From the NCBI GenBank assembly GCA_013204545.1, contig JABMNN010000056.1, positions 1 to 36,761 on the forward strand: a DNA stretch of 36,761 nt, written 5' to 3'. A program made the position numbers and the translations under genes. Source of the stretch: Chloroflexota bacterium. Its GTDB lineage: Bacteria > Chloroflexota > Dehalococcoidia > Lucifugimonadales > Lucifugimonadaceae. Of this stretch, positions 14,865 to 36,057 are shown in pieces (position 1 is the first letter of the stretch; the number at the start of each line of letters is the position of its first letter). The notes below the pieces were generated by a model. It was not told the origin of the DNA. It made no database searches and saw only the letters and a program-made list of their open reading frames with translations.

Positions 14865-16295
14865 ATGACTACGATCGAATCTCGCACCGACGAATTGCTG
14901 ATTGCTCACCTGCTCAGGCGGGCGGGCTTCGGAGGCACGGCAACCGAGCTTCGCGACTATTCGAACCTAAGCTACGAAGTTGTGGTCGATAAACTGCTGA
15001 ACGCTGTCGATTCGACGTCAATTCCACAGGACGTTATCCGTCGCTACCACATCGACCAATCTGACCTCCGTACCAGAGGAAGTAGCTCAGGCAACTGGCT
15101 CTACCAGATGGTCACTACCGATGCTCCTTTCATTGAGAAAGTGAACCTGTTCTGGCATCGGGTGTTCGCAACCGGTCAAACGAAGCTTATCCAGGGCAAG
15201 GCGATGGAAACCCACCTCGCTATGCTTCGAAAATTCGGGCTAGGAAAATTCGACGACCTTCTCCTCAACCTGTCCAAAGATCCCGCAATGATCCTGTGGC
15301 TCGACAACCAGGACAACCACAAAGCCTCTATCAACGAAAATTACGGCCGAGAAATCCTCGAACTGTTTGCGATGGGGGTCGGTAATTACACCGAAGAAGA
15401 CGTCAAAGAGTGCTCTAGAGCATTCACCGGTTGGACGGTTGAAAACACCGACTACATGGCGCTGAAGATGCGCAACAACACGATGCGTCCATACGGATAC
15501 GTTAATTGGCAATTCAAATTCGACCCCGATGACCACGACAACGGCGAAAAAACGTTCTTGGGCGAAACCGGAAATTTTAACGGTGACGACATCATCGCCA
15601 TCATCTGCAAGAACCCCGCAACTGCTGGATTCATAGCTCGGCACCTCTATCACTACTTCGTTGCCGACGAACTGCCGGTTCCGCAATGGCCGCACTTCCC
15701 GCCAATCAACCCCGAAGCGATCCAAGTAATGAGCGATGCATACTTCGACTCTGGATACTCGATCAAAGCCATGCTCAGAGCGCTATTTCTCTCTGATTCG
15801 TTCAAATCAAAGACCGCGTGGAACGCACGAGTGAAAAGTCCGATAGAACTCGTAGTCGGAACTGTTCGACTCGCCGGAGGGTACGACGGGCCTAGTTCCG
15901 ACGTTTACAACCACATCGCTGCCAGCGGTTATATGGGGCAAGACATATACGCACCCCCGAGCGTCGAAGGTTGGATGGGCGGGGCCGACTGGATTTCGAC
16001 CGGATCAATGGTGATGCGCGTCAACTTCGCAGGTGAGATCGTTGGCAACCTCGATAACAAAGGGGTTCGCGATTTGATTTCCACAATCAAGTCAGAGACT
16101 GGGAACGTAACAACCCCAGAATCTCTAGTTAGAACAAGCCTCGCAAATTTAGGAAATCTCCAAGTATCTGACGAAACCCGCGAAGGACTCGTTCAATTCG
16201 CTTCTAGTGCTGAGGATTCCGCACACCCCTCAGACCAAGACGTTGCATCGCTCCTTCAACTTATCGTTGCTACCCGCGAATACCAGTTCGTATAA
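14865..16295 (+). CDS. DUF1800 family protein
   Basis: 476 residues. Family marks are HLLRRAGFG at residues 15-23, VNLFWHRVFATG at about 93-104, NENYGREILELFAMGVGNYT at 157-176 followed by EEDVKECSRAFTGWT, and PPSVEGWMGG towards the C-terminus. DUF1800 proteins are regularly coded beside DUF1501 proteins, in Planctomycetota, Bacteroidota, Proteobacteria and Chloroflexota; their biochemical role is not established. This copy has no recognisable export signal. The NHL-repeat gene follows after 2 nt, and a DUF1501 gene comes next, so the three act together. Confidence 0.9.
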   Translation: MTTIESRTDELLIAHLLRRAGFGGTATELRDYSNLSYEVVVDKLLNAVDSTSIPQDVIRRYHIDQSDLRTRGSSSGNWLYQMVTTDAPFIEKVNLFWHRVFATGQTKLIQGKAMETHLAMLRKFGLGKFDDLLLNLSKDPAMILWLDNQDNHKASINENYGREILELFAMGVGNYTEEDVKECSRAFTGWTVENTDYMALKMRNNTMRPYGYVNWQFKFDPDDHDNGEKTFLGETGNFNGDDIIAIICKNPATAGFIARHLYHYFVADELPVPQWPHFPPINPEAIQVMSDAYFDSGYSIKAMLRALFLSDSFKSKTAWNARVKSPIELVVGTVRLAGGYDGPSSDVYNHIAASGYMGQDIYAPPSVEGWMGGADWISTGSMVMRVNFAGEIVGNLDNKGVRDLISTIKSETGNVTTPESLVRTSLANLGNLQVSDETREGLVQFASSAEDSAHPSDQDVASLLQLIVATREYQFV

Positions 16296-16297
16296 AC

Positions 16298-17317
16298 ATG
16301 ATTACCCAAACCAAATCGAAGCTAAATTACGTCGATACAGTAGGTTTTGGCGCTGACGTTGGCGGTCGTGGATTTCACATTCCTGTCGACCTATCCATTC
16401 GACCCGATGGCCGCATTTACGCTGTAAACCGTAGTCCGATGCACCGACTCGGCATACGCGTCGGTATCTGCGATGTTAATCACGGTTGGTATCACGAGTT
16501 TGGAAGCGACGGAACTGATGATGGTCAGTTCGTGGGACCTACCGCGATCACGCACGGCCCCGATAATCGCGTCTACATCGCCGATGAAGAGCTAAATCGA
16601 ATCACCGTGTACACCCCAGACGGCGAGTTCATCTCGAAGTGGGGCGAGCAGGGCAGCGATCCCGGTCAAATTAATGGACCCGCTGGCCTGAAGTTCACCT
16701 CAAATGGCGATCTACTTGTGGTCGACCACCTCAACAATCGAATCCAGCGCATGACTCCAGATGGAAAGTACATCTCGCACTTCGGCTCAGAAGGCACCGG
16801 TGAAGGCGAATTCAATCTCCCTTGGGGCATCGATACCGATTCCGATCCTTCTGGCAATATCTACATTGCCGATTGGCGTAACGACCGAATTCAACGCTTT
16901 ACATCCAACGGCAAATTTATCGACATGTACGGCTCGTCGGGTCGTGAGGAAGGCAAGTTTGACCGACCCTCCGACGTTGCCGTCGACCAAGACGGTTTCA
17001 TATACGTCGCCGATTGGGGCAACCAGCGCGTTCAGATGTTCGATTCCAATTGGAATTTCCAACAATCAGTAAGAGGCGAAGCAACAGTCTCACCATGGGC
17101 GCAGGAATACCTCGATGCCAACGCCGATGAAGCCGAAGCTCGATCTCGATTTAATCCGTTTATCGAAGTCGACACCGATGATCCACATGAAATTTCCTCA
17201 AGGGTAGAAAGCTACCTGTGGGACCCCACGGCAATCGAAATCGATCCTGAAGGCAGGCTCATCATCACCGACTCCCTCCGCCACCGCCTACAGGTCTATC
17301 AACGATCAAACGAATAG
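16298..17317 (+). CDS. NHL-repeat beta-propeller protein
   Basis: 339 residues, 2 nt after the DUF1800 stop. At least five NHL blades are readable, for example RITVYTPDGEFISKWG, RIQRMTPDGKYISHFG, RIQRFTSNGKFIDMYG and RVQMFDSNWNF, each preceded by a VYIAD or IYIADW type strand. A six-bladed propeller is likely. No signal peptide is evident. Bacterial NHL propellers serve as ligand- or protein-binding platforms and some as lyases or lactonases; no catalytic set can be named here. The position between DUF1800 and DUF1501 suggests a partner for that pair. Confidence 0.88.
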   Translation: MITQTKSKLNYVDTVGFGADVGGRGFHIPVDLSIRPDGRIYAVNRSPMHRLGIRVGICDVNHGWYHEFGSDGTDDGQFVGPTAITHGPDNRVYIADEELNRITVYTPDGEFISKWGEQGSDPGQINGPAGLKFTSNGDLLVVDHLNNRIQRMTPDGKYISHFGSEGTGEGEFNLPWGIDTDSDPSGNIYIADWRNDRIQRFTSNGKFIDMYGSSGREEGKFDRPSDVAVDQDGFIYVADWGNQRVQMFDSNWNFQQSVRGEATVSPWAQEYLDANADEAEARSRFNPFIEVDTDDPHEISSRVESYLWDPTAIEIDPEGRLIITDSLRHRLQVYQRSNE

Positions 17318-17343
17318 TTCTGACGCAACAAGGTCGCACTCTG

Positions 17344-17377
17344 CAATTGCGAGGAGTTCGATGACACAGCAATCACG
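17344..17377 (+). repeat. ATTGCGAG...GCAATC dispersed repeat, copy 1
   Basis: A 34-base element starting with ATTGCGAGGAG and ending GCAATCACG, whose ends pair (ATTGC with GCAAT). A second copy lies at 21274-21307. From memory, similar GTCATTGCGAGGAGC...GGCAATC elements are scattered through many unrelated bacterial genomes. It lies in the 125-base gap between the NHL and DUF1501 genes. Confidence 0.65.
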
Positions 17378-17442
17378 AACACCTGTGAAAAATCGTTCGA
17401 CTCAGTAAAAAAACCAACCAACTCCAAGTACCCGTACCCACC

Positions 17443-18579
17443 ATGACCATCACAGCCAAACGAGAAAAAGTCCTTGTAGTCATCCAGCTCTCAGGCGGTA
17501 ACGACTATCTCAACTGCATAGTTCCCTACCAAAACGGCTTCTACAAAGACTCTCGGAAAAATATCCGTATCACCGACGATCAAGTCATTCCCCTCGATCA
17601 GGGCTACGGGCTCAACCCCGGCATGGGACCCATCAAAGATCTCTACAATCAGGGCAAAGTAGCGATCGTTCACGGCATCGGTTATCCCGTGCCAAACCGA
17701 TCTCACTTCCGATCGATGGACATCTGGCACACCGCCGAACCGACTACAGTCGGATCAAAGGGCTGGCTCGGTCAAGCGATCAAAGACCTCGACCCTCAGG
17801 GCAGTAACCCTGTAACCGCAGTTAACTTCGGAAGCGGACTCCCTCGCGCCCTCGCAGCACCCGGAGTACCTGTAGCTTCAGTCAGCGATCTTGAGAACTA
17901 CGGCCTGCTCACCGGGGTTGCTGGTGTTGATCAACGACAACAAGCCCTGAACGTATTTAGCCGCATGTACACACCGCTGCTCGGCTCTGACACCGTGATG
18001 GACTATCTTGGCCAGACCGGACTCGATGCCATGCGTGGTGCCGATATTCTCAAAGCAGCGCCTCTCAAGTACAAGTCGAACGTCGAATACCCTGATAATC
18101 CGTTTGCCAAAAGCATGAAGGGCGTCGCGCAAGTCCACTTCGCCGATCTCGGTACTCGAGTTTTCTACACGCAGTACGGCGGCTTCGATACTCACACCAA
18201 TGAAGTAGCCCTTCAGTCGAACCTATGGAGCCATATATCGAGCTCACTCGTATCGTTCTTTGACGATCTCGAAGAGCACGGCCTTGGCGACGAAGTAACC
18301 GTTCTGATGTTCTCTGAATTCGGTCGTCGTGTTCTCGACAACGGAACAGGAACCGACCACGGCTCGGGCGGAGTCGCATTCGTAGTCGGCAATCAAGTCA
18401 AAGGCGGTCACTACGCCGAATATCCGTCGATCGATCCCGTCGACTGGGTGCAGGGCGACCTAGCATTTAACAACGACTTCCGAGGCCTCTACACCGACAT
18501 CCTTGAAGACTGGCTCGAAGTCGATGCTAAACCAATAGTCAACGGCACCTACGAAAAAATAAAACCCTTCGCCGTCTAG
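17443..18579 (+). CDS. DUF1501 family protein
   Basis: 378 residues. Opens with VLVVIQLSGGNDYLNCIVPY, the family's GGND motif at residues 18-21, then NPGMGPIKDLYNQGKVAIVHGIGYP and NRSHFRSMDIWHTAEP, later YTQYGGFDTHTNEV and FSEFGRRVLDNGTGTDHGSGG. The fold is related to alkaline phosphatase/sulfatase-like proteins, and the conserved Asp/His residues could bind metal, but activity is unknown. Many homologues have a Tat signal; this one starts directly at the first strand. Third gene of the DUF1800-NHL-DUF1501 set, though a 125-base gap with a repeat separates it from the NHL gene. Its stop codon coincides with the start of the duplicated zwf end. Confidence 0.9.
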   Translation: MTITAKREKVLVVIQLSGGNDYLNCIVPYQNGFYKDSRKNIRITDDQVIPLDQGYGLNPGMGPIKDLYNQGKVAIVHGIGYPVPNRSHFRSMDIWHTAEPTTVGSKGWLGQAIKDLDPQGSNPVTAVNFGSGLPRALAAPGVPVASVSDLENYGLLTGVAGVDQRQQALNVFSRMYTPLLGSDTVMDYLGQTGLDAMRGADILKAAPLKYKSNVEYPDNPFAKSMKGVAQVHFADLGTRVFYTQYGGFDTHTNEVALQSNLWSHISSSLVSFFDDLEEHGLGDEVTVLMFSEFGRRVLDNGTGTDHGSGGVAFVVGNQVKGGHYAEYPSIDPVDWVQGDLAFNNDFRGLYTDILEDWLEVDAKPIVNGTYEKIKPFAV

Positions 18580-23080: not shown

Positions 23081-23111
23081 CACTTCTAAAAGCACTCACA
23101 ACTTAGAAGTG
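23081..23111 (-). terminator. lpdA terminator-like hairpin
   Basis: CACTTCTAA and TTAGAAGTG form a perfect 9-bp stem around a 13-base loop. The stem includes the lpdA stop codon. No strong U-tract follows, so termination strength is unclear. Confidence 0.55.
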
Positions 23112-24512
23112 AATCGCCTCACCCGTAACCGCAGCACCAGCTTCCTTCACAGCCTCCGACAACGTCGGGTGAGCGTGAGTCATCTTGTGCAGCTCAAGGT
23201 TCGTACCTTCTAACATTTGAAGCATCCCGATCTCAGCGATCAACTCCGTAGCTTCAGGGCCAATAATGTGCGCCCCAACAATCGCGCCTGAATCATCATC
23301 AGTCAGCACCTTGACGAAACCCTGAGGCTCACCAATCGCAACCGACTTACCAGCAACCGCAAACGGCACCTTGCCGATCTTCAAATTAATTCCTTGTTCA
23401 CGAGCCTGAGCTTCCGTAAGCCCGATCGAAGCAATCTGAGGCTGCGCGTACGTACAACGCGGCATGTTCGTGTAATCATCGATCGGCTGAGGAGCGTGAC
23501 CCGCAATCGTCTCCGCCGCCACAACACCCTGATCGAACGCAACATGAGCCAGCATTAACTTGCCGTTCACATCACCGACAGCGTAAACACCGCCGACATT
23601 CGTCCGCATATTGCCATCAACATTGATGTAGCCAGGGCCAACCGTCTTGATCCCAACATTCTCAAGACCAATGCCATCGGTGTTTGGCTGAACACCAACA
23701 CCCAGAAGCACCTTGTCGCAAACGAACTCCTTCTTCTCGCCGTTCACTTCGTACTGAACCGCAAGACGACCGTTCTTCTTCTCAACGCCAGAAACGCTGG
23801 CAGAAGTGGCGAACTCTATGCCCTGTCGACCAAACTGACGCTCCAGTTCAACCGAAACTTCCTCATCCTCTCGTGGAACCAGATGACCCAACATCTCGAA
23901 CATCATCACGTTCACACCGTACGAATTAAAGTAATAGGCGAACTCACAACCAATAGCCGAAGCACCGATAACAGCAATCGCCTCAGGCTGCTCACGAAGC
24001 TCAAGGGCATGTCGTGAAGTGATGATGTCCTTGCCGTCAATCTCAAGACCCGGCAAGCTACGAGCCCGTGCGCCAGTTGCAATAACAATATTCTTGGCAG
24101 TAAGCGTCTCGCCGCCCTCGACATCGATCTGCGTCGATGATTTCAGTGTCGCCTTGCCTTGAACCAACGTGATCTTGTTTTTCTTGAACAGAAATCCAAT
24201 ACCGTTCGTGAGCGCCTTCGAAACCTTGCGCGAACGATCGACCGCTTTCGACATACTGGCCGACCACTCGCCAACCTCGATGCCCCAGTCCTCTGCGTGC
24301 GAAAGGTGATTCACAACTTCAGCATTCTTGAGAAGTGACTTTGAAGGGATACAGCCCCAGTTCAAGCAAACTCCGCCGAGTCCACCAATGCCCGTGCCAT
24401 CATCCTTCTCAACAACCGCTACGCTCAACCCAAGCTGAGCACCCCTGATCGCGGCGTGGTATCCACCGGGCCCCGCACCAATAACAACAAGATCGAAGTT
24501 AGTTTCTGCCAT
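23103..24512 (-). CDS. lpdA: Dihydrolipoyl dehydrogenase
   Basis: 469 residues, full length. The FAD-binding motif is VIGAGPGGYHAAIRGAQLG, the redox-active disulfide is GGVCLNWGCIPSK (Cys49, Cys54), the NAD-binding segment is IAVIGASAIGCEFAYYF, and the C-terminal catalytic His-Glu pair lies in HAHPTLSEA (His448, Glu453). It re-oxidises dihydrolipoamide of 2-oxoacid dehydrogenase complexes or the glycine cleavage system, passing electrons to NAD+. No E1 or E2 genes are adjacent, so it probably serves several complexes. Monocistronic, with a hairpin at its end. Confidence 0.95.
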   Translation of the reverse strand: MAETNFDLVVIGAGPGGYHAAIRGAQLGLSVAVVEKDDGTGIGGLGGVCLNWGCIPSKSLLKNAEVVNHLSHAEDWGIEVGEWSASMSKAVDRSRKVSKALTNGIGFLFKKNKITLVQGKATLKSSTQIDVEGGETLTAKNIVIATGARARSLPGLEIDGKDIITSRHALELREQPEAIAVIGASAIGCEFAYYFNSYGVNVMMFEMLGHLVPREDEEVSVELERQFGRQGIEFATSASVSGVEKKNGRLAVQYEVNGEKKEFVCDKVLLGVGVQPNTDGIGLENVGIKTVGPGYINVDGNMRTNVGGVYAVGDVNGKLMLAHVAFDQGVVAAETIAGHAPQPIDDYTNMPRCTYAQPQIASIGLTEAQAREQGINLKIGKVPFAVAGKSVAIGEPQGFVKVLTDDDSGAIVGAHIIGPEATELIAEIGMLQMLEGTNLELHKMTHAHPTLSEAVKEAGAAVTGEAIHF

Positions 24513-24898: not shown

Positions 24899-26353
24899 AT
24901 GGGCTATTTTCATTTCAAAATCCAGAATTGCCTGAGGCAAACAATAAGCCTCACTCTTCTCGCGTTCGCCCTAATTCTGATCACTGCATGTGCGCAAGCG
25001 ACCGAATCCGAACGCGCAACCGTTTCCGCCGCAGCTGTACAACTCACTGCCAGCGAAGAAGCAATCCCTCGTCCCGCTTCCACATCTGCGACTTCGGCTC
25101 CTAGAAATCCCAACGAACCTACTCTGGTTCCTGTCGCAACACTTGCCTCAATAGAAGCCATGCCTGCCACTGACGAAGCGATCTCCACGCCTAAGGCGCG
25201 CGAAACAGCCTCGCCCGGAAACCCCGCTAGAGGCGCTCTACCAACATCAATATCTATTCCGGTAAACCCAACCGAAGTGCCAGTGCTAGTTGCCTCAACA
25301 ATTCCAGCACCAACACCAGCTGCAACCGCCACACCAATCTCAACTACAGCACCTGCACCCGCCCCCACGCCACGCCCAACACCCGGACCCATCACCCGCC
25401 AAACCCAATTTGTCCCGCTTGATGAACCCAAATACGTCTCTCGTGAGAATGCGTCCGGCAACATAACCAATGCCTCGTACGTACTGGGCGTCGCCAACAA
25501 CGGAGAAGCACGCGCCTATCCGCTCGACATGATGTGGTATCACCACATCGCCAACGACACGGTAGGTGGCGAACCGTGGTTAGTCACCTACTGAATTCTC
25601 TGTCATTCAGGGGTCGGGTTCGATCCCATAGTGAACAGTCAACTTCTCAACTTCGAAGTTGTCTCCCTTATCAATGGCGTGTTCTCGATGACTGATCGAG
25701 AAACAGGAACGCTCTGGACACACTTCGACGGTGTATCGCTGTCAGGTCCGCTCCTCGGCGAACGTCTTAAATTTCTACCAATGCAGATCACAACATGGGA
25801 AGAGTGGCAGCGACTCTATCCACACACCACAGTTCTCGATTGGAGCACCGGATTCCAGTCGCAATATCGATCAGTAATGCCCGGCGCGAGCGTGGGCAGC
25901 GATGCCGACTTCAACGACACGCGTCTTCCAGTAAACGCCCTCATGATCGGCGTCGAATTGAATGATCAGTTCAAGTCATACCCGCACCAACTTATCGACC
26001 GCGAGGGCAGCGTCATCAACGACACGCTCGGAGGCGAACCTGTAGCAGTCTTCCACACGCCTGTCGGAGATTCAGGTCTCGCTTACAAACGAACCGTCGA
26101 CGATCAAACACTTACATTCCAGATCGAGATTTCTTCAATCAACATCTACTCAGATCAGGAAACAGGAACGCTCTGGACGTCGACAGGGCTAGCAATCGAC
26201 GGACCGCTATCAGGCACGCAACTCGAATTCATGCCGTCTATCACCACAGAATGGTATGGCTGGGCTGAATACCACCCAACAACCGCCATCTACGGAACCC
26301 CGTCCGATTGGGTAGCAGTTACCGGGCCATCCACACAGGGTGGCTTCAACTAG
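24899..26353 (+). CDS. DUF3179 lipoprotein, candidate selenoprotein (TGA at 25592 read as Sec232)
   Basis: 484 residues if the in-frame TGA at 25592-25594 is translated. Signal peptide with lipobox LITAC (Cys33); residues ~34-165 are Pro/Thr/Ala-rich. Then two DUF3179 halves. The first has GVANNGEARAYPLDMMWYHH and NDTVGGEPWLVTY, then TGA, ILC and HSGVGFDP, followed by DRETGTLWTHFDG and GPLLGERLKFLP. In the family this site reads VTYCPLCNTG, so TGA replaces the first Cys and Cys235 is the second. The second half (VINDTLGGEPVAVFHTPVGD, QETGTLWTS, GPLSGTQLEFMP) lacks both Cys, as I recall is usual. Frame and motifs stay intact for 252 codons after TGA. A SECIS-like hairpin follows at once. DUF3179 has no known function; a thiol/selenol redox role is inference. 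A fresh nonsense mutation is the alternative. No sel genes are in the window. Confidence 0.72.
25592..25638 (+). promoter_or_regulatory. UGA codon plus bacterial SECIS-like hairpin
   Basis: After the UGA (25592-25594) the mRNA can form a stem-loop over 25600-25638. The upper stem is GGGGUC (25610-25615) with GAUCCC (25622-25627) around loop GGGUUC; the lower stem is CUGU (25600-25603) with ACAG (25635-25638), one bulged A at 25634, then CAUU with AGUG, and a 2x2 internal loop. The apical loop begins 21 nt after the UGA and starts with GG followed by U, as expected for SelB recognition in bacterial SECIS elements, which lie inside the coding region right after UGA. Confidence 0.6.
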
Positions 26354-27263: not shown

Positions 27264-30200
27264 GTGGATCCTCTTCAACCCATGAACCTCGATCAACTTG
27301 ATCACGAAATAGTTCGTTCGCTCGACTCTCTACCTGAAGCAATATTCTTGGTTTCAGGCGATGGTCGAATTAAATCTGTAAATACTCTGGCGTGCGAACT
27401 ATTTGGGTACAGCCGAAAAGAGTTGAATGGCAGCAGCTTCCAGCGACTTGTCTCGGACGCGCATCAGGCAAGTCATTCGGAACTCTTGGAACGATTTCAG
27501 AATTCTCTAGAATCTGAGTACACACGTAATGGAACAACGTTCAACTACGTAAGAGCAGACGGCCCAACGTTCAGCGCTAAAACGATTCTGAACTCATACG
27601 AGCTTGATGGTCAGCATGCTACGTGGATCTATGTGCGCGAACTGGATAACACCGACAATCAGACAGTGAATGAAGATGGGGTCAAGGCACTTGAAGCCAT
27701 CGGTAGAGCAGTATCTTCTACCTTCGATCTCTCCCGCGATTTCGGAATTATCGCCGACCAAGTAAAGAAATTGATCCCATGGGATTACGTCGCTGTAATG
27801 GTTCTGGATAACGACAACCTTGACTCGGGAAAAATAGTCTATCTAAGCGATGGTGTACCCGGCATCTTGAGCCAAGGTGAAATGGCCGAGGTATCGCAAA
27901 TCGCATTATCAGACGTTATACGCGCCAATGCATTGGTCGAGTATTCCAGTAAAAACATAGCGAATTCCCCCGATAACGTTCAACGTATTTTCGAACACAA
28001 CTATACGAGCGTAATCGCCACTCCAATGATTAGAGATGGCGCTGTTTTTGGAACGATAGTTTTCGGTACAAAAAACTACGACGGCTATAGCTATCAATAC
28101 AGGAATTTAATTGAGAAGCTCGCTTCATATTTGAGTGTTGCGGTGTTGAACCAGCAATTGCGCGAGAGTCTGGCAAAAGTGGCGCGTACGCGTGCATATC
28201 TGGCCAGTCTTGGACGAGAACTTAGCTCATCTTCAGATATTTCAGCAGCCTTTGATTTGGCGCGTAATTCAATTAAGTCGCTAATTTCATATGATCGAGT
28301 CTCAGTGTTCGTGTTCAATTCGGATGCTCGATCTATCAGGAACATATTCGCAGACGGAGAGCCCTTCCCTGGACTTGACGATCAAACTCACTTTTTGACT
28401 CCTGAATATTCGGAACGCCTTGAAAATATTCTGGATGCCGATTTTCCCGTGCATTTTGATCGTGATGGACTCGCTTCGGCTCAAGAGTTAATCGGAACCC
28501 TAAAACCCCACGCAAAGGCCGGTTATGGATCGGCTCTGCTCGTTCCCCTAAAAACCGTGCAGCAGTCAACCGGGCTGATGGTCATCAGTCTGAAAGACGA
28601 CCATTCGTACACTGCTAATGAACTTGATTCAATATCGCAAGTCGCCCGCCAGATTGCAGGACCCGTTGCGGCATCGTCGTTTCTGGGAATCGCTGAAGCG
28701 CGTGCTGATGCGGAAGCCAAAATATCGAAAATTAGCAGAACTCTAGGTTCGGTTATCCGACTGGATCAAAGCCCCGAGCGGTTTGCAGAACTCGTGAGCG
28801 AATTGATTCCCAACGAGTCGATCTCCGTGAATTCGATTGTCCAGAGTACCCGCGAGCTTCGCTCTATCTACTGTATTGGGTCGATGATCCGCAGCGACCA
28901 AGAGTGGGGGGTCGACCTCGTACACCCAATGAGCGGCACGATGACTGAGAGGGTTGTTGATGCTGAACAAACATTGACAGTTGAATTCGAATCCCACGCC
29001 GAATTGCTTGCCGAGTTTCCGAGCTCAGCACCAGCGATCTCGGACGATAAACATGCAACATTCATCAACGTTCCCATTGAAACAGATGCTGGCATCGTTG
29101 GGATGCTATCTATCGGATCAAGCATCCCAAATTCTTTTTCAAGCAAACACATCGAAATTGCTGAAAAAATCAGTCAGCAAATCGCTGGTCTCGTAGCCCA
29201 TACCGAACTACGTATGACAGAGTCGGCGGTTCGATCAGAACAATCAATTCTGGGGCAAATCGGGCAGCTAATGAGTTCAGCACTCGATCTCGGAACGGTA
29301 TGGAACGAATTTGCCAATCTCACGTCCGAACTCGTCCCATACTCGGTAGTTTCCATGGCTTTTGTGGATAATCATGCAGGTTGTGGAGTAGTTGCCTACG
29401 ATTACCGACCAAGTAACGTACCTGATGCAGGACAGAAAGTCGGAGATACATTTCCGCTCAAAGATACCCTGTCAGGGCAGATAGTTTCTGAACGAAAAGG
29501 CATCATATTTTTTACAGAAAATCCTGCCGATTTCAACAAGCGATTCCCTGCTTCCAAACATTCCGGGGTTGCAAATCTTGAAAGGTCGTTAATCGCCGTC
29601 CCTTTGATCTGGGGTGATGAAGTGGTCGCTATTCTTTATCTGAGGCACCTCGATCCAAAGAGATTCACACCTGCCCATTTGCGGATCGCTGAGCAAATCG
29701 CCACACATATCTCCGCATCTGTTGCTGGGAGTTTGGCACGCCAACGCGAAAACGAAATCGCAGCCGAAAGAGAATCGCTAACTTCTATCGGATTAGCTGT
29801 GACATCAGGTGGGTTATTCTCTGAAAATTTTGATCAGTTTGTCGAAATGATCAGAAACCGCATAGATTTCGATGACATAGGTGTTGTCAATCATGATCCC
29901 GACCGAGGCATCCTCTACTCCAACATATTCAGGCATCGAGGGAAATCACCGTACGCCTTGGAGAAAGTCGATAGTCAAGGTTCCATCGAAATACCAATGC
30001 GTGGAACGATGGCTGAACAGGTCTTCCAAACCCGTGCAGGAATCTTATATTCGTGTGATTCGAATGCACAGCTTGAAACTGACTACCCTGGAACACCTTT
30101 CGTCGGCATCGAGGGCGAACAGCGGTCACTTATATATCTGCCGGTAATTTGGGACGACCGAATTGATTCGGCTCTCTGGATCAGTAGGAGCGATGGCACC

Positions 30201-32108
30201 AGATTTTCTACTGATGAGTACAACTTTATGGAGAAAGTTGTAGCTCAAGTTGCAGGTTTCATCGCAGGAAATATGCTTCGCGATCGCGAAACCAATATTG
30301 CCGTTGAACGAGGATATTTAAACGAAATCGGGACAGTTCTAAATTCAGCACCTGATGTAGCTTCAGGTTTCGAAGAATTCGCCAGAGTTGTCGAAAAACT
30401 AATACCGTTTAACTCTATCGCAATCAGTCGTATCTATTGGGAACGCGGCTGCGTCATACGGGAATACGACTCATGGCGAGATATGGAACCAACCGGCCAT
30501 CGGCCCGGTGCCATTATTCCACTTGAAGGTTCAGTTGCGGCAGCCATCGGAAGAACAAAACAAGGGTTTCTCACACCTTTCGATAATGCCGATATCCTTC
30601 TTGATGAATTCCCAAGCGCCATGCCACCAGATCACGCATGGAAGCAAAAATCGTCCGTCGCCGTACCTATGCTGTGGAGCAACGAAGTTATTGCAATTTT
30701 GTCGATATCGACAGCGTCCCACCCCGGCTACGGTCCTGCTCAACTTGACCTCGCCAATCGAATCGCAGCGCAAATTGCTGGCCCTCTCGCAGGGCACCTA
30801 TTACGGGAACAGGAAAAGGCGCGGGTAAAGGAACGAAATATCCTGAATGCGATAGGCTCGCTGATGAGCCTGAACCCTCACACTAGTGAAGTTGCCAACT
30901 CCTTTTTCGATCTTGTTAGTTCACTCATCAACTGCGACGCGGTCGGGCTTCTGGAAGTAGATCAAGATAACGATGAAATACGACCAGTAATCTCAAGATA
31001 TGCAGCAGACTCGAACGTTCCGAGCGTCTGGGATACTACGGATTCGACACGGCTTAGCGGAACCATTACAGAGCAGGTTGTCAAATCTCGTGAAGTTGTA
31101 GTGAATCGTCCCGACTCTAAAGAACATCTCGGTACGAACTATCCAAATTCACCCGGTGTTCAGACTTACGTACCACATCGTACCGTACTGATAGCACCGT
31201 TGATTTGGGACGACTCAGTTAATTTTGTTCTATTTTTGCGAAACATGGACGGAACAGGGTTCGACCACAACGACATCCGCCTCGCCGAACTTATTTCCGC
31301 GCAAATCGCAGGCCCTGTTGCTGCCGAACAAACCAGAGCGAGTCAGTCAGCACTCGAAACGGAAAGACAGAGAAGAACTGAAGCCGAATTGGAGGCAAAA
31401 CTCTTCTCTGAAATCAGCGAAACCAAAAGCAATTTCGTCAGTGCAATGTCACACGAACTCAAGACACCGTTAACGAGTATCGTGGCGTTTGCCGACATCC
31501 TGTCACGCAACCGAACAGGCGTACTCGATACCCGAATTCTCAAACAGATCAACATCATTCAACGAAATAGTCGACATCTTGAATCGATGATCGACCAGCT
31601 ACTCGATCTTTCAAGAATGGAATCGGGCCGTTTCACCATCATAAAGATCCCATTCGATCTTGCTGAGCTTGCTACTCAAGCCGTTGAAAACAACGCACAC
31701 CTATGGGAGGGTAAATCCCAACGGATTTCTGTCGATTTGAATCCAGATTCACTCATCATCAATGCGGATCGAGAACGAATTCTGCAGGTGATAAACAATC
31801 TGATCAACAACGCATCGAAGTACTCGCCAGAAGAAACCGATATCGAAGTCTCACTACGAACGCTCATGAGAAATGCCGAAATAACAGTCACAGACCGAGG
31901 TCCAGGCATACCTGAAGACTCAATCGAAAAACTGTTCGAAATGTTCTACAGAGTCGAAAATCCAGGCGCAGCAAGCGTCCCAGGTACCGGAATTGGGCTC
32001 AACGTATCCAAGCGGATCGTTGAAGAACATGAAGGCGAAATCTCTGTAAGCAACCGTGAAGGTGGAGGAACAATAGCAACCTTCACAATTCCACTCCCCA
32101 TCCGGTAA
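27264..32108 (+). CDS. Giant sensor histidine kinase: PAS, seven GAF-like domains, HisKA, HATPase
   Basis: 1614 residues; GTG at 27264 or ATG at 27282, neither with a good ribosome site. A PAS domain (about 12-125) starts SLPEAIFLVSGDGRIKSVN. Seven GAF-like modules of ~170 residues follow (about 140-1355), each opening with a helix of IG..MSSALD type and closing with IA.QIAG.VA, joined by helical linkers. The kinase core starts near 1364: coiled coil, HisKA box SAMSHELKTPL with phospho-acceptor His1397, N box NNLINNASKYS, G1 DRGPGIPEDS, G2 GTGIGLNVSK. No membrane segments, so a cytoplasmic sensor of several small ligands or redox/light cues. No receiver domain and no response regulator nearby; its partner must be elsewhere. 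The GAF tandem probably arose by internal duplication. Confidence 0.93.
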   Translation: MDPLQPMNLDQLDHEIVRSLDSLPEAIFLVSGDGRIKSVNTLACELFGYSRKELNGSSFQRLVSDAHQASHSELLERFQNSLESEYTRNGTTFNYVRADGPTFSAKTILNSYELDGQHATWIYVRELDNTDNQTVNEDGVKALEAIGRAVSSTFDLSRDFGIIADQVKKLIPWDYVAVMVLDNDNLDSGKIVYLSDGVPGILSQGEMAEVSQIALSDVIRANALVEYSSKNIANSPDNVQRIFEHNYTSVIATPMIRDGAVFGTIVFGTKNYDGYSYQYRNLIEKLASYLSVAVLNQQLRESLAKVARTRAYLASLGRELSSSSDISAAFDLARNSIKSLISYDRVSVFVFNSDARSIRNIFADGEPFPGLDDQTHFLTPEYSERLENILDADFPVHFDRDGLASAQELIGTLKPHAKAGYGSALLVPLKTVQQSTGLMVISLKDDHSYTANELDSISQVARQIAGPVAASSFLGIAEARADAEAKISKISRTLGSVIRLDQSPERFAELVSELIPNESISVNSIVQSTRELRSIYCIGSMIRSDQEWGVDLVHPMSGTMTERVVDAEQTLTVEFESHAELLAEFPSSAPAISDDKHATFINVPIETDAGIVGMLSIGSSIPNSFSSKHIEIAEKISQQIAGLVAHTELRMTESAVRSEQSILGQIGQLMSSALDLGTVWNEFANLTSELVPYSVVSMAFVDNHAGCGVVAYDYRPSNVPDAGQKVGDTFPLKDTLSGQIVSERKGIIFFTENPADFNKRFPASKHSGVANLERSLIAVPLIWGDEVVAILYLRHLDPKRFTPAHLRIAEQIATHISASVAGSLARQRENEIAAERESLTSIGLAVTSGGLFSENFDQFVEMIRNRIDFDDIGVVNHDPDRGILYSNIFRHRGKSPYALEKVDSQGSIEIPMRGTMAEQVFQTRAGILYSCDSNAQLETDYPGTPFVGIEGEQRSLIYLPVIWDDRIDSALWISRSDGTRFSTDEYNFMEKVVAQVAGFIAGNMLRDRETNIAVERGYLNEIGTVLNSAPDVASGFEEFARVVEKLIPFNSIAISRIYWERGCVIREYDSWRDMEPTGHRPGAIIPLEGSVAAAIGRTKQGFLTPFDNADILLDEFPSAMPPDHAWKQKSSVAVPMLWSNEVIAILSISTASHPGYGPAQLDLANRIAAQIAGPLAGHLLREQEKARVKERNILNAIGSLMSLNPHTSEVANSFFDLVSSLINCDAVGLLEVDQDNDEIRPVISRYAADSNVPSVWDTTDSTRLSGTITEQVVKSREVVVNRPDSKEHLGTNYPNSPGVQTYVPHRTVLIAPLIWDDSVNFVLFLRNMDGTGFDHNDIRLAELISAQIAGPVAAEQTRASQSALETERQRRTEAELEAKLFSEISETKSNFVSAMSHELKTPLTSIVAFADILSRNRTGVLDTRILKQINIIQRNSRHLESMIDQLLDLSRMESGRFTIIKIPFDLAELATQAVENNAHLWEGKSQRISVDLNPDSLIINADRERILQVINNLINNASKYSPEETDIEVSLRTLMRNAEITVTDRGPGIPEDSIEKLFEMFYRVENPGAASVPGTGIGLNVSKRIVEEHEGEISVSNREGGGTIATFTIPLPIR

Positions 32109-32225
32109 GCAGTTCCTATCAGGACAAACGATCTAGTCCTACTATTCGGCTACCTCGAGTCGATTTCGAGCGACTAACCTCTCAAAATCCGTGGAACTCT
32201 TACTCGGTCGTCGAGAGCTAGTAGC

Positions 32226-32528
32226 TCAATCATCTATGTCAGTGCCGATACTCGGCTCGTAAGCTTTCTCGCCACCAATCGACGTGTCGAAAATCTTGTA
32301 AGCCTTCGCCCCAAAAATCGAAATGATTACTGTCGTAACCAGTATCACTAGGAAAATAACCGCTGAAACGATAGCGAACGGCTCCCAACTGGCAGGACAC
32401 TTGCGAATGCCTGAACAAAGCCATGCGCTGGTCAACCCGTAAGCTCCGCCAAACATAAGTCCCAGCAACGTACCGAGAACTAATCCAACAACTGCAGGGC
32501 GTCTTCTGAAAATGAAACTCAACATCAT
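32226..32528 (-). CDS. Small two-helix membrane protein, unknown function
   Basis: 100 residues; two adjacent Met codons at the start. Membrane helices at about 12-36 and 50-71, separated by a short loop with two Cys (WLCSGIRKCP). The acidic C-terminal tail (EPSIGTDIDD) is probably cytoplasmic. No family recognised. It lies alone between two plus-strand kinase genes. The coding call rests on the clean helix pattern and the strong Met start. Confidence 0.6.
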   Translation of the reverse strand: MMLSFIFRRRPAVVGLVLGTLLGLMFGGAYGLTSAWLCSGIRKCPASWEPFAIVSAVIFLVILVTTVIISIFGAKAYKIFDTSIGGEKAYEPSIGTDIDD

Positions 32529-32927
32529 CCCTCAACACTACCGCCAATCGTCGCCGTATGCACTTCAAATCGGCGTCGGCAGTAAAACTATTCTCGGGCC
32601 AGTCGACAAATACTACGAACCTCGATAGCCCGCCGGATGCTGTGCATTCCCTAGCACTGCAACGAATCCACAATCGTAAATTGCGACATGTCTTGCGGAC
32701 ACTCAGTACACAATCGCACAGGTAATTTTTGCTAAAACCCAGCTTTGATACCTAGGATTTTCTGCCAAAGGAAACTGCAAGCCTAATAAGTGCCAGTTCA
32801 CACCCACCCCGACTCGACGGCTGAAACGATTGTAAGTTAATGCTACTTGAGCTATCTGTATTCATTAACTGCAAAACCGCTCCTGATGTCCAGTAAATTC
32901 CGGTCACACCGATGTGCCTGAACTCTC
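32529..32927. other. Intergenic region, nothing recognised
   Basis: About 400 bases between divergent genes. ORFs here are short shadows. No RNA gene, repeat copy or convincing operator is seen; promoters for the small membrane protein and for the kinase at 32928 must lie here. Confidence 0.3.
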
Positions 32928-34103
32928 ATGCCACTCAGAACAATTAACAAGGGTAGAAAATGGGCGCTCCAACACAAAACCAACGTGTTATGGGGGCGTA
33001 GAGCCGCGTATGTGTGGGCCATTTTCTTAGTCGTTAGCTTCTTCGTGCTCGATGCCTTTTTACCTCTGGGTGTTGCGGCTGGGGTTCTCTACTCAGTTGC
33101 AGTCATGGTATCCATGCACACGTCGAAAACACGATTCATCGTCACCGTAACAGTAGTATCAGTCCTACTCACGATACTGGGATTACTTATGTCACCCGAT
33201 GGCGGAGAAACATGGAAAGTCGTCGCAAACCGTGTACTCGCCATCTTCGTGATTCTCGGTGCCGGAGTATTCGCTATATACGCCATCGCCGTTCGCCGAA
33301 GATCCACACGTCAGGCGATCATGTTTGAGCAAGTCCGACGACGACGAACTCAGGATGTGAACGTTCAACTCATGCGTTCAGCCGAAGCTCGAAACGAATT
33401 CCTCGGGCAAATATCGCATGAACTACGTACCCCGCTCACAAGCCTCACAACATTCGCCCACATACTCGACGAAAAATCCGAAACGCTCTCGAGAGAAAGA
33501 GTAAGAGCACACGCAGAAGTTATCAGCCGTAACGCACGGCGCCTCGAAGTGCTTGTAAACGACATCTTCGACGCCTCAGGAACGGTAACTGACTCATTCA
33601 AACTCAATCTGGCGACCATCGATCTGCCTCAGATCGTACAAAACACCACCAACGACTATGTAAATCATATCCGCACACGTGACCAGGAACTGACCACAGA
33701 AATCGATATACCTGAAGGATCGAACTTCCATGCAATCGCCGATCTCTCCCGCATCGCTCAAGTCGTAGCCAATCTTCTATCCAACGCCTCCAAATACTCG
33801 TTACCCGGATCGACAATCAACATCTTCTGTGGGCTTGAAAGCGGCAAATACATCGTGAAAGTCACCGATCACGGCAACGGCATCAGCACCGGCGACATCT
33901 CCAAAGTGTTCACACCATTCTTTCGAGTCGATAGCTCCGACGTGCGATCAGTCCCCGGCGCCGGGCTCGGCCTAACTATCGCCAAATCGATCATCGAACT
34001 CCACGACGGCCAGATATACATCGAAAGTGAACTCGAAATCGGTACAACCGTCTCATTCGCAATCCCAGCCATCGCCGACATCCCAGTCCTCGCAGCAAGT
34101 TAA
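32928..34103 (+). CDS. Membrane-bound sensor histidine kinase
   Basis: 391 residues. The N-terminal part has about four membrane helices (residues ~27-41, 46-62, 69-87, 102-122) with almost no extracytoplasmic domain, as in intramembrane-sensing kinases. A helical linker leads to HisKA with GQISHELRTPL (His164) and HATPase_c with N box NLLSNASKYS, G1 DHGNGIS, F box FTPFFRV and G2 GAGLGLTIAKS. No receiver domain. No response regulator is adjacent. It is closely similar in kinase core to the neighbouring kinases, suggesting paralogues. The stimulus is unknown. Confidence 0.92.
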   Translation: MPLRTINKGRKWALQHKTNVLWGRRAAYVWAIFLVVSFFVLDAFLPLGVAAGVLYSVAVMVSMHTSKTRFIVTVTVVSVLLTILGLLMSPDGGETWKVVANRVLAIFVILGAGVFAIYAIAVRRRSTRQAIMFEQVRRRRTQDVNVQLMRSAEARNEFLGQISHELRTPLTSLTTFAHILDEKSETLSRERVRAHAEVISRNARRLEVLVNDIFDASGTVTDSFKLNLATIDLPQIVQNTTNDYVNHIRTRDQELTTEIDIPEGSNFHAIADLSRIAQVVANLLSNASKYSLPGSTINIFCGLESGKYIVKVTDHGNGISTGDISKVFTPFFRVDSSDVRSVPGAGLGLTIAKSIIELHDGQIYIESELEIGTTVSFAIPAIADIPVLAAS

Positions 34104-34374
34104 TCAACCGGCTCCCGACCCAGTCCGATGCCTAATGCGTCTCACCAGCAACACCGCTGTGACAGCACTTTCTCTTCCGTTCCCACGCAGCAGCCAAGCC
34201 ACATCCTCTCGCACCGCAACGATGCCCATAGCCGAGCGGTCATACTGCGTTTTTCAAACTCATTTATCATCATCATCAATCGACCCTAGATAGGTGCAAG
34301 CACCTATTAAAACTTGGCTGGTAACCCACAGAATGCACTAGATACGTAAACAAACTTCGATCGAGTTGCAACGA

Positions 34375-36057
34375 ATGAAATTAGGCTTCTGGGCGAAAAT
34401 CCCAAAACCTAAATCTAATAAATCCAAAATGGCACTTGTTGCCATCTTATTCTTGGTCATCTCAGTCGTAACGGTCATCGCCGATTCACACGATCTCCGC
34501 GTTATAGCGGCTGCATTCGTTATCCCCGCAGTTGCTGCAGTCCATTTCTGGAATCTAAAACGAGCCATCCCAGTACTGCTCGCTGTGCCAGTTGTGAACG
34601 AACTCTTAAGCTTCGGCGAAAATTGGTATAGCGGAACCGATGTGATTCAGGATCCAGCCATCGGCAACCATATGTTGGGGTCGATCTCTGTAATTCTCAT
34701 TGCGGTCGCCTACTCCGCAGCCATAAGAACAAGCCGATCGCTAACGCGTGAACTGAAACTTAGGGAAGCCTCTGAAGCGCGTGAATCCCTGCGTGCCAGC
34801 CAGCAATCCATCCTCGCTCGAATGTCACGTGAAATCGGTTCTATCGAACACCCAGAACGCATGAAACGCCAAATTGCTACATTCATGTACCAACTGGCAT
34901 CACCCGATAGCGTCATCATCTACGAACGAATCGAAGAATTGGGTGGCTGGGTAGAAATCGCTCAATCAGGCGCTATAACCAAAACAACTGCCGATTCCAT
35001 CCCTAACTCCGTGTCGTTTGAAAATTTCACCGAAATCGACACCATGATTTCGCCAACATGGGTGCCCGACGATATCGCAGGGAAGCTCACTACTGTCGTT
35101 CCAATCTCAACGCACGATGCAAATCAACATCTAATTGTCCCGATCCGATGGCGATCCCAATCCATCGCTTTCGTAGTGCTGACGTATAAATCCTCACCAG
35201 CACCCGATAGCCAACAAATCTACCTTCTCCAGCAAGCAGCCTGGCAAATCGCCGGGTCCCTCGCCGGAAGCATCGTCTATCAGAAAGCCGTTGACCTCGG
35301 ATTTCGACTCGAAAAAGAAGCCCAAGCCCGCGATCGTATGGCATCCGTCGTCTCGCATGAAATGAGAACCCCCCTAACAGCCGCGGTCGCAATGAACGAT
35401 CTTCTGCTTCGTGACAACGACAAAAACCTCAACGACCGCCAAATTCAAAAGCTAACAGTCATCAGGCGCAACCTGCAACGCATCATCGCCGTCAGCGACG
35501 ACCTCCTCGAATCGTCCAGAATGCGATCCGGTGGCTTTGAACTATTTTCTGAACACGCAAACCTCGTACAAATCATCAACGATGCCGTCGCTAACTTCCG
35601 CCCCGTTGCCGATGGCTTCAATCAACACATTGAATTGGATCTTCCCGAAAATCCCGTCGTTGTGCACGCCGATGTATCGCGACTCTCTCAAGTTGTTACC
35701 AACTTTCTGTCAAACGCTTCAAAATTCTCATCACACGGAAAATCCATCCAAGTCACCTTCGCCTCGAACCACGAAACAGCCCGCATCGAAGTAATCGACC
35801 AAGGATCAGGCATCGGTTCCGACGAAATTTCTCACATCTTCGACTGGGCATTCCAGTCCGATCAGAAGCAATCAACTGGCAAGCACGGAGCAGGTATCGG
35901 ATTGTTCGTATCGAAAGCGATCGTCGATGCCCACGGCGGAAAAATCGGCGTCGAAAGCCTCCCCGGCGGAAACACCGTTGCATGGTTCGAAGTCCCCATC
36001 ATCGAATCGGCACAATCCACCTCAACGCCGGCAACACTCGAACACTCCTTCTCCTAA
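34375..36057 (+). CDS. Membrane-bound histidine kinase with GAF-like domain
   Basis: 560 residues from the ATG at 34375; the frame also offers TTG at 34366. Four N-terminal membrane helices (about 20-38, 42-58, 64-80, 100-118), a helical linker, then a GAF-like module (~140-305) ending WQIAGSLAGSI like those of the 1614-residue kinase. HisKA follows with VVSHEMRTPL (His328), then N box NFLSNASKFS, G1 DQGSGIGSDE and G2 GAGIGLFVSK. Expected to autophosphorylate and pass phosphate to an unlinked regulator. Third orphan kinase in a row; it seems to combine the membrane part seen in the previous gene with one GAF of the first. Confidence 0.9.
   Translation: MKLGFWAKIPKPKSNKSKMALVAILFLVISVVTVIADSHDLRVIAAAFVIPAVAAVHFWNLKRAIPVLLAVPVVNELLSFGENWYSGTDVIQDPAIGNHMLGSISVILIAVAYSAAIRTSRSLTRELKLREASEARESLRASQQSILARMSREIGSIEHPERMKRQIATFMYQLASPDSVIIYERIEELGGWVEIAQSGAITKTTADSIPNSVSFENFTEIDTMISPTWVPDDIAGKLTTVVPISTHDANQHLIVPIRWRSQSIAFVVLTYKSSPAPDSQQIYLLQQAAWQIAGSLAGSIVYQKAVDLGFRLEKEAQARDRMASVVSHEMRTPLTAAVAMNDLLLRDNDKNLNDRQIQKLTVIRRNLQRIIAVSDDLLESSRMRSGGFELFSEHANLVQIINDAVANFRPVADGFNQHIELDLPENPVVVHADVSRLSQVVTNFLSNASKFSSHGKSIQVTFASNHETARIEVIDQGSGIGSDEISHIFDWAFQSDQKQSTGKHGAGIGLFVSKAIVDAHGGKIGVESLPGGNTVAWFEVPIIESAQSTSTPATLEHSFS

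Follow-up and report, generated by a model that had tools for sequence, protein, structure and literature searches.

DUF3179 (PF11376, with a UxxC/T motif) is tabulated as a prokaryotic selenoprotein family in a 2022 review (PMC9312934) and in a 2026 review (PMC13188914), and in both tables the entry is sourced to Zhang and Gladyshev 2007. Each table carries one example accession. The 2007 work is reportedly the paper on the Olavius symbiont. A family named OS_HP1, with a UxxC motif, was described from ocean samples, where a single Sec sequence was listed alongside 69 Cys homologues (PMC2398784), and we infer that it is the same family as DUF3179. The DUF3179 proteins of the Cys type (CPLCNT) are identical to the Sec type in domain and site, but Cys replaces Sec and, as a set, they show no hairpin excess. 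SelA and SelB have been reported in sponge symbiont bins (PMC5649159). SAR202 bacteria are described as widespread in the ocean and slow-growing, with one species cultured; “Candidatus Lucifugimonas marina” is a cultured SAR202 member of the class Dehalococcoidia, and the main text of its culture paper contains no word starting with “seleni” (PMC10444878).

The window analysed here, a stretch of 36,761 nucleotides, corresponds to contig C41 in an assembly of 134 contigs that totals 2,951,305 bases and is 92% complete. The genome is congeneric with L. marina, and by this kinship the window counts as SAR202. Its DUF3179 gene belongs to the listed Pfam family and places Sec where that motif has its first Cys, so the proposal of a new selenoprotein family, made in a sequence-only reading of this DNA, fell away, since the tables of both reviews already hold DUF3179. 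What sets the present case apart from the single tabulated accessions is a radiation in Chloroflexota/SAR202 with several Sec paralogues per genome. No report of such an expansion of Sec-DUF3179 in SAR202 was found in the literature searched; the expansion, which reaches six Sec paralogues in a single genome, and a possible Rieske-like scaffold are the parts that look unreported.

The gene and its in-frame TGA

The gene runs on the forward strand from ATG 24899 to TAG 26351-26353 and is interrupted once, by a TGA in frame with both ends, and the 252 codons 3′ of that TGA contain no further stop, just as the sequence-only reading had described. With TGA read as Sec the product has 484 residues and a UxxC pair, U232 and C235; the proposed placement of the TGA at the first Cys of a CxxC motif is thus upheld, also by the aligned homologues discussed below. 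The family assignment was equally sound, with Pfam DUF3179 matching the 484-residue product at 2.9e-68 (230.9 bits against a cut-off of 27) and each half matching alone (3.6e-15 and 2.4e-44). The domain consists of two repeats (local score 193, against 57 for the best of 500 shuffles; hhalign repeat-to-repeat probability 99.87), and the Sec/Cys pair is confined to the first. Cys or Sec occurs at positions 11, 31, 232 (Sec) and 235 and nowhere else, and past the lipobox Cys31, Cys235 is the sole Cys. The lipoprotein suggested earlier stays putative, compatible with an ITAC lipobox read by eye from the translation, and from its sequence the product is probably lipid-anchored and extracytoplasmic.

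Table 1. Coordinates of the DUF3179 selenoprotein gene, its parts and its divergent neighbour within the window
Feature	Position	Strand	Basis or detail
Dihydrolipoyl dehydrogenase gene, divergent neighbour	23103..24512	-	also upstream in relatives
DUF3179 selenoprotein gene, 484 aa with TGA almost certainly read as Sec	24899..26353	+	translation, Pfam match, orthologues, dN/dS
Putative signal peptide with lipobox ITAC, Cys31	24899..24991	+	translation read by eye
Ala/Pro/Thr-rich linker, residues 32-165	24992..25384	+	28 A, 25 P and 20 T among 134
DUF3179 repeat 1, bears Sec-Cys pair	25412..25867	+	repeat comparison, structure model
In-frame TGA, Sec232	25592..25594	+	frame, alignment
bSECIS-like hairpin	25600..25638	+	upper stem 7 bp 25610-25616/25621-25627, loop GGUU 25617-25620, lower stem
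Cys235, partner to Sec232	25601..25603	+	translation
DUF3179 repeat 2, without Cys	25868..26350	+	repeat comparison

It is almost certain that the TGA at 25592-25594 is read as selenocysteine, and highly probable that SelB and tRNA-Sec decode it via a bacterial-type SECIS to give a lipid-anchored, two-repeat DUF3179 protein with Sec232-x-x-Cys235. The in silico support covers the codon, the machinery, the hairpin, conservation and selection; export, lipidation and redox cycling are what we infer from them. Because an open reading frame with a GTG start at 25631 is present, the TGA might instead be a true stop between two cooperating proteins, the second translated from that GTG or from a start upstream. 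This is very improbable: the break would fall at a strand end inside repeat 1 of a confident structure model (AlphaFold2 with the 66-sequence alignment A3 as input, alignment A5 holding 48; mean pLDDT 93.2 and pTM 0.91 for both repeats, 93.9 and 0.89 for repeat 1), a start at GTG 25631 would lose the conserved Cys235, and intact Cys paralogues are single frames across the site.

Five of six loci (L192-L195 and L197, at 79-94% identity) have the dihydrolipoyl dehydrogenase gene upstream in divergent orientation, 3.4 kb from the DUF3179 gene in L195; the sixth (L196) begins at the DUF3179 gene and so is uninformative on this neighbour. The adjacency hints at a redox link to the selenoprotein but falls short of showing one, because dihydrolipoyl dehydrogenase is expected to be cytoplasmic. 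Elsewhere in the window, a DUF1800 gene, an NHL-repeat protein gene and a DUF1501 gene follow one another at 14865-18579, and a 1614-aa PAS/GAF histidine kinase gene is followed by two further histidine kinase genes at 27264-36057.

Selenocysteine machinery and the hairpin

The own genome contains all four of the genes that the sequence-only reading had proposed to look for, including selB and tRNA-Sec, whose absence it had taken as fatal to its case: selA (517.7 bits), selB (338.3 bits, summed over neighbouring pieces), a tRNA-Sec (65.1 bits, called tRNA-SeC (tca) by ARAGORN) and selD (374.2 bits), the last itself with one in-frame TGA. The 76 genomes examined from the GTDB family gave a selB match in 57 cases (55 above the cut-off), a selD match in 56 and a DUF3179 match in at least 48, and at the genus level selB was matched in 19 of 19. 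It was also matched in 36 of the 38 genomes bearing a Sec-site DUF3179; the two in which the profile search found no selB match, G020 and G056, are 76% and 56% complete.

Some DUF3179 copies lie close to these genes. A second copy in the own genome, about 6 kb from selB (G000:C123:15737-16804; L027 5738-6805), was ruled out as a Sec gene, as it is a decayed copy of the Cys type (CPLC) spread by frameshifts over several frames, and several relatives, among the matches listed, have Cys copies about 6-11 kb from selB. In L. marina a Sec-DUF3179 gene of group B lies about 3 kb from selD (L232 5057-6145 and 9256-10224), and in genera g1 and g2 the distance is 2.4-3.9 kb in at least 14 genomes (G001, G009, G011, G013, G014, G015, where the gene is decayed, G017 and G019-G025). 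Linkage to selD as a family-wide rule was rejected, the two being far apart in G026 and G055 and on separate contigs in G012.

SelB and tRNA-Sec would insert Sec by acting on a hairpin whose GGUU loop starts 22 nt downstream of the TGA. The 7-bp stem-loop alone has a folding energy of -10.2 kcal/mol, and a 49-nt piece reaches -18.3 kcal/mol, where 200 shuffles average -10.25 (z -3.47). Published rules for bSECIS elements ask for a loop of 3-9 nt, 4-16 bp, a G at loop position 1 or 2, a spacing of 16-37 nt and an MFE of at most -7.5, and the window hairpin satisfies every one of them as they are given there (PMC13188914). The register also covaries, which together with the fit to the rules answers the earlier suggestion that a SECIS be sought here: the covariation score is 0.338 against 0.116 shuffled in a set of 32 sequences and 0.525 against 0.161 in a set of 28, values reached by none of 500 shuffles in either set, and slid registers score at most 0.073. 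In the upper stem 94.6% of 224 cells are paired in the larger set and 99.5% of 196 in the smaller, with five of the seven pairs changed on both sides in each. Two simpler counts of covariation are weak, further pair types being matched by 84 of 500 shuffles (32 sequences) and 430 of 500 (28 sequences), and both-side pair changes by 13 of 500 in the 28-sequence set. The two alignments (A1 and A2) hold 60 of 84 Sec sites and were drawn from a 70-site set, the other 14 sites lying outside it; the ten left out comprise six of group C, two of group P and the decayed L040 and L061. An Rfam search of the window at gathering thresholds gave no match.

Against synonymous-codon shuffles, mean folding z is -1.28 for Sec frames (n = 84), -0.02 for Cys frames (n = 51) and +0.29 for frames with another residue (n = 25). 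A strict single-stem bSECIS filter was passed by 31/84, 3/51 and 0/25 of these, where synonymous shuffles predict 4-6%; all six members of group C (UPIC) fail it. In one tandem of Cys and Sec copies, 67% identical and a natural Sec/Cys swap pair (L170, G071:C141:11500-13900), the group C stem is present in the Sec copy and absent from the Cys copy, as judged by eye.

Conservation and selection at the site

The gene has orthologues in only four of the 19 genus genomes, its own and three of the 18 others (G001, G011 and G017, at 72, 83 and 67% identity), and every one retains the TGA. The sequence-only reading would have given up its claim had all close relatives carried TGC or TGT and reads shown the TGA to be an error or a strain-specific nonsense mutation; these three relatives carry TGA. 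The G001 orthologue occupies the position that it has in CP046147.1, the finished chromosome of L. marina JH1073.

For a wider view, 167 distinct DUF3179 frames were aligned from loci fetched, among the matches listed, out of 76 family genomes, and 160 of them have a residue at the Sec column: TGA in 84, Cys in 51 (40 TGC, 11 TGT) and another residue in 25, which answers with a yes the earlier question of whether other members have a TGA aligned to this Cys. Since frames flagged with one TGA were deliberately fetched, 84 of 160 cannot be read as a frequency; the placement of the TGAs at the Cys column is still informative, because choice by flag leaves the position of the TGA free. The motif reads UxxC in 83 frames, UxxY in one (decayed), CxxC in 51, SxxT in 15, SxxC in five, AxxC in two and three single other states; one of the 15 SxxT frames is a paralogue in the own genome (L030, G000:C134:16986-17906). 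The 84 Sec sites are spread over 38 genomes, with six in G055, five each in G053 and G057 and four in L. marina.

Reading of TGA as some other residue, whether by near-cognate read-through or a reassigned code, is the next alternative to weigh. Outside the site, 28 further in-domain TGAs occur in 49,133 codons; 23 fall where the domain ends and resemble genuine stops, and five are internal (L058, L155, L067, L040 and L050). L067 (G001:C1:2386500-2389500) and L040 carry theirs at a Gly position 5′ of the Sec codon, which would be an error, decay or a second Sec, and L050 has Arg at the site. These internal codons speak for another residue, but we give the idea very little credence: the genome has selC, selA, selB and selD, the Cys column holds 84 TGAs against five internal ones elsewhere, with TGA a likely stop at domain ends, and the folding excess is limited to TGA frames. 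Sec remains the preferred reading. From other Chloroflexota families, 12 loci in seven genomes were picked because of a TGA flag; of their 16 in-domain TGAs, 13 fall at the Sec codon, at least one per locus, and three at the domain end. By eye, a hairpin of 6-7 bp forms where expected at 12 of these 13 Sec sites, and in L249 it is absent from the best fold.

Decay does occur in this family, as the copy on C123 of the own genome and others in G005 and G015 attest, and L061 and L040 are Sec copies that look decayed, which lends some colour to the idea of a pseudogene whose TGA arose by nonsense mutation or is a sequencing error. We consider this highly unlikely, given that an identical TGA appears in independent assemblies and in a finished isolate chromosome, that the hairpin covaries and that the codons past the TGA are constrained. 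For the four genus orthologues, with five of six pairs usable, dN/dS is 0.033-0.092 3′ of the TGA, at a dS of 1.2-1.7 that is near saturation, and 0.076-0.095 5′ of it. In wider Sec groups, taken from 70 of the 84 sites, the median is higher (0.05-0.31) and the Cys set is alike (0.18, 0.24), with dS saturated. On a quick tree of the 151 of 160 frames that passed a length filter, which came with long-branch warnings, the three site states need at least six changes and Sec/Cys alone four, against 59.3 for shuffled labels (three states). Sec appears to be ancient in several of the paralogue groups and to have switched rarely.

Fold and likely role of the Sec-Cys pair

Outside the cytoplasm, Sec232 and Cys235 would take part in a redox reaction by alternating between the selenol/thiol and selenenyl-sulphide states. 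The UxxC thiol oxidoreductases (Trx-like, Prx-like and DsbA-like) share the pair and a likely redox role, but DUF3179 is a beta-rich tandem repeat that is probably lipid-anchored, and no thioredoxin-like protein is among the best 50 matches of each Foldseek search. Rieske oxygenases and ferredoxins come first instead, for both repeats (4nbf_C, E 3.1e-3; 5bok, E 5.7e-3, probability 1.00, target TM 0.57) and for repeat 1 (2qpz, E 0.038, probability 0.99). In the repeat 1 model the UxxC closes a strand and is followed by a loop and a strand, a placement that, on our reading of the model and of alignment A4, resembles the CxxH of Rieske box II.

These matches would favour metal binding over thiol redox chemistry as the role of the pair, which we regard as unlikely. 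None reaches E < 0.001, the top query TM is only about 0.2 for both repeats and 0.37 for repeat 1, and no sequence relative was found among solved structures at E ≤ 1. Rieske kinship by sequence was rejected, with hhalign probabilities of 0.48 (whole), 0.58 (repeat 1) and 0.72 (repeat 2) no better than those of eight column-shuffled controls run with repeat 1 (0.07-1.62). The cluster ligands CxH and CxxH are not found in the product: there is no box I Cys, and Cys stands in place of the box II His. Sec as an Fe-S ligand is also rare. With a redox pair still preferred, the models weakly suggest a Rieske-like fold in tandem, in which the Sec-Cys pair would lie close to the site of half the cluster ligands. 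It is possible, if doubtful, that DUF3179 is a tandem Rieske fold that lost its Fe-S site, in which a selenol-thiol pair replaced the box II ligands and which radiated as exported paralogues in aerobic SAR202.

Annotation that treats TGA as a stop would truncate the Sec-DUF3179 genes. The reading is directly testable, because L. marina is cultured and finished and has four of them. If it is true, members of the GTDB family would use as many as six selenoproteins, probably exported and all from one unstudied protein family, for some redox task, and this where the cultured representative of the group is aerobic, whereas the organisms richest in selenoproteins are, according to the 2026 review, predominantly anaerobic (PMC13188914).
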